Shown here piece after piece: positions 1 to 2,465 of a DNA stretch of 34,351 nucleotides; the first letter of the stretch is position 1; each line of letters starts with the position of its first letter. Source of the stretch: Candidatus Peribacteraceae bacterium (GTDB lineage: Bacteria > Patescibacteriota > Gracilibacteria > Peribacterales > Peribacteraceae); assembly GCA_028712095.1 (NCBI GenBank), contig JAQTQU010000010.1, forward strand, positions 1-34,351, given 5' to 3'. Under the pieces are notes generated by a model. The model did no database searches, was not told the origin of the DNA, and saw nothing but the letters and a program-made list of their open reading frames with translations. Both the position numbers and the translations under genes were made by a program.

Positions 1-32
<32 letters not shown>

Positions 33-240
33 GCAGTTCCATTCTGGCTGGTCGTCCTCTCAGACCAGCTACCCGTCATCGACTTGGTAGGCCGTTACCC
101 CACCAACTATCTGATAGGCCGCAGGCCCCTCCCGAACCGAAAAATCTTTCCCCTTGCGGGGGTATCCGGTATTAGTCCCGCTTTCGCGGGGGTATCCCTG
201 AGTTCGGGGCAGGTACCAACGTGTTACGCAGCCGTTTGCC

Positions 241-554
241 GTGTCCCGCCCATTCTATTGCCATGTTCCAAGACTGTTCTTCAGTCTTTGCTTGAGACGT
301 CCTAATCCACTTCCGTAAGCCTTCAATTTTCTTTCACGCGACACTGCGTCGTGTTCATCTTTAAAGGCTTCGTAGTAGATGAGCTCCCAAGGTCCCTTAT
401 CATGTGTAGACGTTGTTTTGCCATCATTGTGTTCCGCGAGTCTTCGCTCGAGATTATCCGTACGACCGATGTAGATCCATCGGCTTTTCGTGCTTTGGAG
501 GAAGTACACGTAGTGCATAAGGGGGATATGGTAGCAGCAGAATGGGCGGGGCAC
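241..554 (-). other. Expanded helix 6 (V1) arm of 16S rRNA: 16-bp stem around a ~280-nt apical insertion
   Basis: On the rRNA strand, GUGCCCCGCCCAUUCU (554-539) can pair with AGAAUGGGCGGGACAC (256-241), with 15 of 16 positions complementary and one C/A mismatch. The 282 nt between the arms (257-538) are almost entirely the GIY-YIG ORF, whose TAG stop overlaps the base of the stem. The insertion is at the tip of a variable hairpin, so mature 16S could tolerate it or have it trimmed. It is too short to hold both this ORF and a group I ribozyme. It resembles an rRNA intervening sequence in topology, but its coding content differs. Confidence 0.85.
255..518 (-). CDS. GIY-YIG nuclease-domain protein encoded inside the 16S rRNA
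   Basis: This is an 87-residue single-domain GIY-YIG protein of the UvrC/YhbQ superfamily. It starts MHYVYFLQS (the YVY half of the motif), continues with WIYIGRTDNLERRLAEHN (the YIG half and the catalytic Arg) and has a later Glu in the SRERKLK stretch, all expected of the fold. It is read in the same sense as the 16S, within the V1 arm. The ATG at 518 is chosen because an upstream extension to 578 would translate conserved 16S sequence. No Shine-Dalgarno sequence is visible. Small stand-alone GIY-YIG proteins are common in bacteria, and homing nucleases in rRNA genes are known in CPR genomes. Whether this one is expressed, and whether it cuts DNA at the empty 16S site, is inference. Confidence 0.85.
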   Translation of the reverse strand: MHYVYFLQSTKSRWIYIGRTDNLERRLAEHNDGKTTSTHDKGPWELIYYEAFKDEHDAVSRERKLKAYGSGLGRLKQRLKNSLGTWQ

Positions 555-633
555 TCGACTTGCATGTGTTAGGCGCACCGCTAGCGTTCACTCTGAGCCA
601 GGATCAAACTCTTCAAAAAGAAGACTTATTGAC

Positions 634-659
634 CTGGTTGTTCAAAGAAAAACAACTAG
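634..659 (-). other. Hairpin just upstream of 16S 5' end
   Basis: On the rRNA strand, CTAGTTGTT pairs with AACAACCAG around an 8-nt loop (one A/C mismatch), ending about 15 nt before the predicted mature 5' end. This is the usual place for leader structure involved in 16S processing. No processing enzyme site can be assigned from sequence. Confidence 0.4.
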
Positions 660-753
660 TTATTTACATTGTCATCCATGCATCGTCCCCGGGGACGGGG
701 AGATGATGGTTACTACTTCTCTACTCTGCGATGGTGTGAATGAGCTGCGCTCA

Positions 754-800
754 TTCACCCTGAGCGAGTCCCGCAGGTGCGGGACGAGTCGAAGGGTGAA
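754..800. repeat. REP-like palindrome, copy 1, overlapping a competing hairpin at 736-758
   Basis: TTCACCCT (754-761) pairs with AGGGTGAA (793-800), and a nested GTCCCGC/GCGGGAC stem (768-774/779-785) splits a loop of the form GAGCGA...GAGTCGA. The same GAGCGA-GTCGA loop appears in the palindrome at 4473-4520 with an unrelated stem, which points to a repeat family. The adjacent perfect hairpin GTGAATGAGC-TGC-GCTCATTCAC (736-758) shares TTCAC at 754-758, so the two structures exclude each other in the transcript. Confidence 0.6.
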
Positions 801-933
801 GGACCTTACCTTTCCCACTTACGGCTCCACGATGGAAACGGCCGCGCTCCCGCGGCCGCGGGACGCGAGCCAACAAGGGAGCAGAAGGAAAGGTCTCTCC
901 CGTCCTGTTATTGGCAGGACAGGAAGCAGGGGC

Positions 934-961
934 ATTGTAAGCTCCCAACGAAAGGCGTCAA
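934..961 (-). promoter_or_regulatory. Probable 16S rRNA operon promoter (P2)
   Basis: On the minus strand, TTGACG (961-956) is followed after 16 nt by TACAAT (939-934), a good sigma70 match, with initiation expected near 927. Transcription would run about 310 nt of leader into the 16S. It lies just after the terminator-like hairpin of the preceding small gene, which supports it as the rRNA promoter. Confidence 0.6.
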
Positions 962-973
962 GGAATTTTGGCG

Positions 974-993
974 GAGAAGAGGCCGCTCTTCTC
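974..993. terminator. Terminator-like hairpin after the 994-1314 gene
   Basis: GAGAAGAG (974-981) pairs perfectly with CTCTTCTC (986-993) around a 4-nt loop, directly after the TGA of the minus-strand gene. There is no run of T on the exit side, so intrinsic termination is uncertain. Confidence 0.35.
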
Positions 994-1314
994 TCAGGCT
1001 TCGGTTTGAGCAGTCCGTGCAGCCGCAAGCGCCGCCTGGAATCGTTCATGCGCTATCTGAGTCTGGTCAATGAGTGTGAGCCCAATCTGCGCTTCGCAGA
1101 GCGCGCGATCCGAGGGCTGCATTGCCGCGACCGCCTGCGCACAGGCTTCGGGATCCTGCGCAAGAAGGTTGGTGATTCCACCCCGTTCCGTCATGGCTTC
1201 CATTGCGCGGGTTTGGATGTATGCCTGGTGCGTGATGGGTGTTGCCGCCACGTCGCAATCAATGTGTGCAGCCCTGTTGCAGGCAGCAAGTAATGTTTCT
1301 TGAAGAGCGTTCAA
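994..1314 (-). CDS. Hypothetical protein, about 106 aa
   Basis: I do not recognise a family. Codon use from about 1310 downward (GCG, CTC, CAG, GAA) matches the other genes, and the product is Ala-rich, mostly helical, with four cysteines and no membrane segment or signal peptide. The frame is open up to an ATG at 1389, but that N-terminal stretch contains AT-rich codons (AGA, TTA, ATA, ATA) and a consensus promoter at 1337-1364. I therefore prefer the in-frame TTG at 1314. An ATG at 1350 or 1389 is the alternative, in which case the promoter match would be internal. It lies between the methyltransferase gene and the rRNA promoter on the same strand. Function unknown. Confidence 0.5.
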   Translation of the reverse strand: MNALQETLLAACNRAAHIDCDVAATPITHQAYIQTRAMEAMTERGGITNLLAQDPEACAQAVAAMQPSDRALCEAQIGLTLIDQTQIAHERFQAALAAARTAQTEA

Positions 1315-1336
1315 GCAGGAGGGGGGAAACAGTTTT

Positions 1337-1364
1337 ATTATAGCATACATGGTTTGTATGTCAA
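1337..1364 (-). promoter_or_regulatory. Consensus sigma70 promoter (P1)
   Basis: On the minus strand, TTGACA (1364-1359) and TATAAT (1342-1337) are both perfect, separated by 16 nt, and TGC before the -10 makes it an extended -10 element. Start near 1330. It faces the small hypothetical gene and, beyond a hairpin and P2, the 16S gene. Confidence 0.7.
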
Positions 1365-1373
1365 AAAACTTTC

Positions 1374-2465
1374 CTAAGTTTCTATCCATGTCCGCTTGAG
1401 TGGATCCGGCGGATGCCCTTTGCCCGGGATACCCTTATACGCGGGTTGATGAAAGATTTGGGCAAAGGGTGGTGGGTCGAAGTTCCCGGGGACGAGGGGG
1501 GCTAAGACGAAGAACGCGTTCACGCCGCAGGGGTCGGTGGCGACGAGGGTGTATCCCTTCTCCCGTCCCAATTTCTCGAGCGCCTTCAGGCTCGCTCCCT
1601 GATAGTCCGAACCATCCCATCGGAATGCGGGGTCGTAGGGGATCGTCACGCTTAAGTTCGGTCCCTTGTTCGCGTTGTATTCCATGATCACCACGCGGGG
1701 ATGGAAATTTTGGATCGCCTTCCACACCCAGTAGTCGTTACCGTCGATGTCGATCGAGAGGAGATCGAACTCCGGTGGCACACTGTACTTCTCGAAGAGC
1801 GTCTCAATGTTTTCTGCGGTGATGAATTCTTGATGGACCCCGAGGGAATGATTATTTCCACCTTTGTCCGGCGACAAAGGTGGAGCCAAAGCGCCGGCGC
1901 GCCAATCCCCACTCCGCCCGGCCCCGTGCCTCCTCGCCGACTCCTCCAAGGCTTCGGAGTCGCCTCGTCGGCGCGCGCTGCTCTCATGCAGCGCGGGGCC
2001 TTCCTCTTCACCCCCCGTGGCGCGCCACCCTCCCTGTTGGCTGTTGGCTGTTTGTTCATGTATGTGTTTGTTGTTTTGTTTGTGGATGGTCGTCGGCCAC
2101 TCTCCGCCATCCATCAGGAGGCCGGTCCATCCTCGATGTTTCAAAAGATAACGGCAGTTACACTGCAGCCCATCTTCCACGCCGAACTCCACGCACACAC
2201 GGTTGGTCGTGCCGATCTTTGCGAAGACCGCCGCGATGATCCCGTCCTCCCCATTTTGCGAATACTCCCGGCGTTCGATGAAGGGAATGCGCCGGGCGAA
2301 GACGGAGAGATCGCAGATGGGCTTTTTCATCCAGCAGAGCCACGGGAGCACGACGTGTGCCCGGAACCATCCACGGAACCAATCCAAGGACTTCTTGCTA
2401 CGTTTGCGGATGCGGGTGAGGAGGGGCACGGGAGCAGTATGCAGTATGCGTACAGTACGCTGCAT
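1374..2465 (-). CDS. FkbM-like SAM methyltransferase-fold protein carrying an in-frame repeat insertion
   Basis: 363 aa. The N-terminal core reads YSQNGEDGIIAAVF, then FVEFG-type VCVEFGVEDG (SAM-binding motif I region), CNCRYLL and GWTGLLMDGG. The C-terminal core resumes with HQEFITAENIETLF, FDLLSIDIDGNDYWVW and VVIMEYNANKG. This pattern resembles FkbM-type methyltransferases seen in glycan clusters; the exact subfamily is not recognised. Between MDGG and the HQEF block lie about 85 low-complexity, Arg/Ser/Gly-rich residues encoded by palindromic repeat DNA (1855-2105), which the family does not need. The ATG at 2465 sits inside a repeat, so translation may begin further in; the next Met is residue 46. 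The reading frame is intact, but whether the protein folds is uncertain. Confidence 0.65.
   Translation of the reverse strand: MQRTVRILHTAPVPLLTRIRKRSKKSLDWFRGWFRAHVVLPWLCWMKKPICDLSVFARRIPFIERREYSQNGEDGIIAAVFAKIGTTNRVCVEFGVEDGLQCNCRYLLKHRGWTGLLMDGGEWPTTIHKQNNKHIHEQTANSQQGGWRATGGEEEGPALHESSARRRGDSEALEESARRHGAGRSGDWRAGALAPPLSPDKGGNNHSLGVHQEFITAENIETLFEKYSVPPEFDLLSIDIDGNDYWVWKAIQNFHPRVVIMEYNANKGPNLSVTIPYDPAFRWDGSDYQGASLKALEKLGREKGYTLVATDPCGVNAFFVLAPLVPGNFDPPPFAQIFHQPAYKGIPGKGHPPDPLKRTWIET
1855..2105. repeat. ~250-bp block of palindromic repeats inserted in frame in the methyltransferase gene
   Basis: The block begins with a 12-bp perfect hairpin (1857-1868/1873-1884, loop CGGC). It then has CGCCGAC/GTCGGCG (1935-1941/1967-1973) enclosing GACTCC/GGAGTC, and an 8-bp hairpin CGCGCTGC/GCAGCGCG (1974-1995). 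After these come GGCGCGCC sites, tandem CTGTTGG units and a T/G-rich tract. It encodes no conserved residues of the methyltransferase yet preserves its frame. A 15-nt segment, GTTTGTGGATGGTCG (2078-2092), recurs at 32382-32396 in another hairpin-bearing intergenic region. Confidence 0.65.
2436..2449 (-). repeat. Left copy of GCATACTGCATACT inverted repeat
   Basis: On the minus strand this reads GCATACTGCATACT and matches 3327-3340 on the plus strand exactly, so the two copies are inverted around the 2543-3139 gene. It lies within a wider imperfect palindrome (about 2438-2467) that contains the start codon assigned to the methyltransferase gene. Confidence 0.55.

Follow-up and report, generated by a model that had tools for sequence, protein, structure and literature searches.

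A candidate mobile element with a GIY-YIG gene and terminal inverted repeats in the V1 loop of a Peribacteraceae 16S rRNA gene

GIY-YIG genes in rRNA insertions and related systems

Insertions in rRNA genes are a known feature of CPR bacteria, but those that carry GIY-YIG open reading frames (ORFs) had lacked an explanation. The accessible text of Tsurumaki et al. 2024 (PMC11270868) states that no rRNA insertion with a GIY-YIG ORF in the CPR resembles either intron type, that these ORFs are sparse, and that they are seemingly outside of spread by homing. As far as that text goes, GIY-YIG ORFs in non-intron CPR rRNA insertions were thus already known, and the rRNA-housed GIY-YIG ORF that the initial annotation of the DNA described here had pointed out is not without precedent. 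The locus that we describe shares with those insertions the protein domain, the host clade, the lack of a group I or group II match, and the scattered, less conserved sites, but the main text of that paper (PMC11270868) describes no inverted-repeat unit, no occurrence outside of rRNA, and no promoter.

Other described systems resemble the locus in part. Classical rRNA intervening sequences (IVSs) with an S23p / 23S_rRNA_IVP gene, as in Coxiella burnetii (PMC4990558), likewise combine a repeat stem, an ORF in the loop, a variable helix, and a sporadic distribution, whereas here the ORF encodes a predicted GIY-YIG nuclease and copies of the unit occur in RNase P RNA genes, at tRNA gene 5′ ends, and between genes as well, where some of them are flanked by 4-bp duplications. 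Fungal mitochondrial mORFs are intronless endonuclease ORFs in conserved genes, one of them GIY-YIG, but they reside in protein-coding genes, the ends of which are duplicated, and comparable terminal inverted repeats are not described in the accessible part of that report (PMC3630166). Bacterial insertion sequences and MITEs come close in their short length, terminal inverted repeats, 4-bp duplications (here at some of the copies classed as intergenic), and ORF-less derivatives (here in genome G710); unlike insertion sequences, the unit encodes no known transposase domain, only a GIY-YIG protein of ~85 amino acids (aa), and shows no duplications in RNA genes. By sequence and modeled fold, this protein is closest to UPF0213 and SLX1, with catalysis predicted; it differs from these GIY-YIG nucleases, which are chromosomal, non-mobile proteins, in its putative mobility. 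To our knowledge, GIY-YIG nucleases have not been known as drivers of bacterial insertion elements, and the literature that we searched, whose coverage excluded most subscription journals and preprints, yielded no description of a GIY-YIG element bounded by terminal inverted repeats.

An interrupted 16S rRNA gene

The window, i.e., the whole 34,351-nt stretch of Candidatus Peribacteraceae DNA that was analyzed, is the start of contig C29 (G000:C29) in a 1.25-Mb genome. Its relatives, which include the named CPR loci L033 and L034 and have small genomes, suggest that the host belongs to the CPR. It opens with the 5′ part of a 16S rRNA gene (Table 1), which covers model positions 1 to 354 and is truncated at the latter by the contig end at position 1; the remainder of the host 16S was not found in the 1.25-Mb assembly. 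Within this gene, an insert of ~300 nt, made of an intact ORF between two arms, takes the place of the 6-bp hairpin of same-genus relatives.

Table 1. Features of the interrupted 16S rRNA gene and the adjoining ORFs in the window.
Feature	Position	Strand	Evidence
Partial 16S rRNA gene, interrupted by the element	1..619	minus	Rfam SSU_rRNA_bacteria RF00177, 264.7 bits
Entire insert including arms, replacing the V1 / helix 6 hairpin loop	241..554	minus	Empty-site comparison with L012, L018, L019, L026
5′ arm / left terminal inverted repeat GTGCCCCGCCCATTCT	539..554	minus	Repeat pairing; element consensus CCCCGCAC(C/T)TTTT
3′ arm / right terminal inverted repeat AGAATGGGCGGGACAC	241..256	minus	Pairing with the 5′ arm
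Extended -10 promoter-like box TGCTACCAT, 9 nt upstream of ATG	528..536	minus	Motif search
Predicted GIY-YIG nuclease ORF, 87 aa, in rRNA sense	255..518	minus	PF01541, E = 2.1e-17; AlphaFold2 pLDDT 84; nearest structures UPF0213, SLX1
131-aa ORF adjoining the 16S	994..1389	minus	No known domain
363-aa ORF adjoining the 16S	1374..2465	minus	Weak FkbM methyltransferase match; interrupted by GC-rich stretch at ~1900 to 2040

The insertion-free state of the locus can be read from close relatives. Alignment to such relatives, which had been proposed as a check, revealed that the four same-genus sequences of Table 1 carry at V1 the short hairpin GTGGGTTTAGACCCAC, or a version that differs by one letter. 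One of them (L026) matches the window by 98% over 149 nt of leader and 16S start, and the 16S downstream of the insert matches congeners at 92 to 97%. That conserved 16S lies on both sides, as the initial annotation had stated, holds in so far as both flanks match congeners, with the reservation that the gene is partial. These matching flanks argue against an assembly chimera, which we rejected on this ground. We regard it as scarcely credible that the arrangement is such a chimera, or else a decayed relic without function: The contig does stop within the 16S and the assembly lacks the remainder of the gene, but the arms pair across both junctions, the reading frame is intact, and equivalent arrangements recur in other genomes. 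A group I or group II intron was rejected as well, as the insert is too small and window positions 1 to 1000 match no Rfam intron family at E ≤ 10. Both of the outcomes that had been named as grounds for abandoning the earlier reading, a chimera and a ribozyme intron, were thus looked for and met with congener-like flanks and an absence of intron matches at that threshold.

The anatomy of the insert was largely reproduced. The two arms pair at 15 of 16 positions (GTGCCCCGCCCATTCT against GTGTCCCGCCCATTCT, the reverse complement of the 3′ arm), with a C versus A as the sole mismatch; the outer GTG of the 5′ arm pairs with CAC and was assigned to the host stem. The inverted-repeat score of the window flanks is 13, a value that only 0.13% of mispaired flanks reach, and RNA folding of the insert region gives z = -5.75. 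The GC content of the insert is 47%, versus 59% in the flanking 16S. As previously described, the ORF is complete and open from the ATG at 518 to the TAG at 255 and runs in the sense of the rRNA, both lying on the minus strand; its stop codon shares 2 nt with the 3′ arm.

Besides PF01541, the 87-aa protein has weaker Pfam matches to PF10544 and PF13455. Pfam shows only GIY-YIG and related domains, i.e., no known transposase domain (DDE, HUH, or serine or tyrosine recombinase) and no S23p / 23S_rRNA_IVP. Its best matches in sequence and in fold, the latter from the AlphaFold2 model, are UPF0213 proteins and the structure-specific nuclease SLX1, and five residues (Y16, G18, R26, H30, and E62) are invariant in an alignment of eight such proteins. 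Judged by these comparisons, the window protein has the GIY-YIG fold and motif, and nuclease activity is predicted.

Repeat-bounded relatives across the phylum

A profile of the eight proteins, which contains no repeat sequence, was used for a phylum-wide search, and the flanks of 136 distinct relatives were scored for inverted repeats. A score of at least 11 was reached by 16 of 18 and 19 of 23 relatives in the two top classes of profile score (35 of 41 together), compared to 13 of the 95 relatives below these classes and 0.8% of shuffled flanks. In the top classes, the repeats are near-perfect and share the start CCCCGCAC(C/T)TTTT; the left-repeat consensus over 35 aligned repeats reads C C C C G C A C C/T T T T T, and the units span 281 to 328 nt. 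Some high scorers in which no repeat was detected keep a CCCCGCAC-like sequence 5′ of the ORF (L208-type starts; L205, L184). When left and right repeats of different sites were compared, 36% had an arm match of at least 7, versus 3% for shuffled sequence. The window repeats CCCCGCCCATTCT fit the consensus moderately, with a mean cross-site score of 5.0 versus 4.1 for shuffled repeats, and because of this weaker fit, the membership of the window copy rests on protein, architecture, and site along with the repeats.

The relatives reside at a variety of sites. The host genome has one copy of the window type, and elsewhere no close copy was found (48 to 51% identity). In the same genus, L026 carries a different GIY-YIG ORF in V2, flanked by 20-bp perfect repeats, and further family members lie in V2 (L041, L045), at the V9 tip (L049), and in 23S (L043, L048, L052, L111). 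Three of the 23S copies share sequence around what we take to be helix 25, and L048 presumably lies near helix 63 (E. coli 23S). Among the best phylum-wide matches, L201 (in V1), L183, and L199 are in 16S and L187 is in the spacer just 3′ of 16S; L182, L184, and L190 are in RNase P RNA genes by Rfam, to which L186 and L204 are assigned only by an adjoining RNase P-like GAGGAAAGTCCG motif; L185 and L193 sit at tRNA gene 5′ ends; and other copies are intergenic. The search of other V1 arms that had been suggested yielded L201, L215, and L228, so that V1 copies, with the window, number four. These occupy at least three positions in a quick protein tree with SH-aLRT support, which indicates that V1 was entered by proteins from at least three places of the tree. 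No relative was found in the viral contigs that were searched.

Given repeats that recur in V2, V9, 23S, RNase P RNA, tRNA-adjacent, and intergenic copies, the arms of the window insert are best read, from sequence, as terminal inverted repeats of a mobile element and not as a host helix; the earlier description of a stretched V1 stem does not hold in that sense. The proposal that a minimal, nuclease-encoding mobile element occupies a tolerant loop is strengthened by the copies elsewhere and by the empty sites of congeners.

The insert could instead be a GIY-YIG version of the classical rRNA IVS, where the arms amount to a lengthened rRNA helix, maintained for removal by RNase III, and the ORF is a passenger that spreads by recombination of rRNA genes. 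We consider this unlikely. The shape is that of an IVS, as in Coxiella: The window insert has terminal inverted repeats that extend an rRNA helix, and an ORF in the loop. The sites match too, 23S helix 25 being a classical IVS site; a 23S_rRNA_IVP ORF occupies the same V1 loop in L098; ORF-less stem insertions are frequent at V1, V2, and V9; and the host has RNase III. Against it, the same repeat-ORF-repeat unit, with 4-bp duplications at some copies, is found between protein genes, where the processing of rRNA plays no role, and two copies within one genome (G678) share nothing but the unit. The earlier statement that this is not a classical IVS stands for the encoded protein, which is not S23p/IVP, and falls short for the shape and for the site, where a relative of the same class carries a true 23S_rRNA_IVP ORF.

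Several neighboring observations concern other insertions and other GIY-YIG genes. The L098 insert (positions 1131 to 1589) places the classical 23S IVS protein (PF05635) in the 16S loop that the window element uses. One 16S gene (L217, G500:C1) holds both a group I intron (784 to 1037) and a GIY-YIG repeat-bounded unit. ORF-less stem-forming insertions are common in V1/V2 (L011, L002, L014, L029, L096, L100, L101, L102) and V9 (L029, L070, L096); some of these may be remnants of the element and others AT-rich expansions. A second branch of the same GIY-YIG proteins (L035, L037, L044, L046, L050, L056, and about 40 other loci) is encoded 40 to 330 nt 3′ of a wide variety of tRNA genes, on the same strand. 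In the space between, palindromic units often begin directly 3′ of the tRNA CCA and end in TGGC.CCGCCA-like, tRNA-3′-end-like copies, and from its sequence, this branch looks like a separate repeat system tied to tRNA ends. In L206 and L209, a GIY-YIG gene lies 16 to 17 nt upstream of a tRNA-Trp gene, and 5′ of the GIY-YIG gene is a partial copy of that tRNA with a CCCCGCC hairpin at its end (a partial tRNA duplication). GIY-YIG matches in families f10 and f14, and in some other families from the class of the host, contain two to four in-frame TGA codons, which suggests that TGA serves as a sense codon there; no consistent pattern of this kind was seen in the family of the host itself.

Movement, expression, and a proposed mechanism

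Movement of the unit is suggested by genome G678, where two copies (L203 and L214) are found at different places of one contig, in unrelated surroundings, and can be aligned from repeat to repeat only. They differ at 30 coding positions, 25 of which are third positions (dN 0.026, dS 0.66). The V2 trio likewise shows dN of ~0.2 against dS of 1.5 to 2.4, i.e., a dN/dS of ~0.1; by these ratios, the ORF is under purifying selection. For L214, no relative with the locus was found from which an empty site could be read. Such a comparison was obtained for the insertion site of G625: The genome G700 is uninterrupted there and reads GTGGGGGTTGACA, while the congener G710 carries, at the site of the full G625 element, an ORF-less unit of roughly 100 nt (L234 / L247) bounded by CCCCCACACC / GGTGTGGGGG, which by its structure is a MITE-like derivative.

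Direct repeats of 4 bp (including TTGA, TCAA, TAAA, TATG, TGTG, and AGAA) flank 8 of the 19 copies classed as intergenic, compared to 0.5 expected from mispaired flanks, with the CCC and GGG runs taken as the ends of the unit, a choice made post hoc after a first test with the outer repeat ends as boundary had been negative. The set of 19 predates the last Rfam scan and includes two 16S copies (L217 and L223), neither of which is among the duplicated eight. None of the 18 RNA-gene copies, window included, has a target duplication in tests for 3 and 4 bp, and entry into RNA genes may accordingly differ from the intergenic route.

An intronless homing endonuclease gene would move differently: The nuclease would cut insertion-free alleles, flank-directed repair would copy the gene in, and the repeats would be by-products. 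The sporadic presence, the empty alleles in congeners, and single sites filled in several genera (16S V2 in G004, G059, and G081; one 23S site in G001, G081, and G096) are in line with homing. It does not, however, account for conserved repeats, movement among unrelated sites, and target duplications, and the accessible text of PMC11270868 judged GIY-YIG ORFs in CPR rRNA to be outside of a homing context; we hold this explanation to be very unlikely.

The preferred reading is a mobile element. Sequence comparison establishes the anatomy of the unit, its presence at unrelated sites, a similarity that ends at the repeats, purifying selection, and the empty sites in congeners, and it points to 4-bp target duplications at intergenic copies. 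We think it probable that the insert is one copy of a mobile element of ~280 to 330 nt, with terminal inverted repeats of 12 to 22 nt and a single GIY-YIG gene. The element would start with CCCC(G/T)CAC(C/T)TTTT, followed in most copies by an extended -10 box and then by the ~85-aa ORF, a nearly leaderless gene whose stop codon would abut or overlap the right repeat. Of the 10 elements in the first set, 8, among them the window copy, have an extended -10 box (TGnTAnnnT) that ends 6 to 9 nt upstream of the ATG, where 0.15 were expected; none of 46 long window ORFs has one. This suggests a nearly leaderless mRNA from the element's own predicted promoter, and the protein would be made from that promoter and not from the rRNA.

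In the proposed mechanism, the nuclease would cut empty sites and the element would then be copied in. In RNA genes, it would enter short hairpins rich in GC, e.g., CCCCGCAAGGGG, and the hairpin stem would merge with the repeats. The empty hairpin of relatives at V2, V9, and the shared 23S site is often CCCCGCAAGGGG. The V1 empties of the genus are GTGGGTTTAGACCCAC and not CCCCGCAAGGGG, so that this target does not obviously fit V1, and since GCAA loops are common at those sites and the V1 empties differ, a common CCCCGCAAGGGG target is a suggestion only. Once transcribed, the element would form a hairpin on a tolerant helix and leave the 16S functional. RNase III or other trimming might excise the insert from the rRNA precursor as in a classical IVS, or the insert might be retained as a helix extension; since the host encodes RNase III, excision of the IVS type is as possible as retention without splicing.

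We see an even chance that these copies represent a new class, i.e., a minimal autonomous element in which an ~85-aa GIY-YIG nuclease replaces the transposase on CCCCGCAC-type repeats, which makes 4-bp duplications in ordinary DNA and is specialized in the loops of hairpins in essential RNAs (16S, 23S, RNase P RNA, tRNA edges), with the element folded out of the functional RNA by its repeats. Its length of ~300 bp would, if so, place it among the smallest self-sufficient mobile elements. Copies in V1, V2, and V9 lengthen or break amplicons, and 16S surveys are thus affected. If the insertions are copies of one repeat-bounded element, this would provide a mechanism for part of the CPR rRNA insertion pattern, that of a selfish gene inside essential RNAs without splicing.
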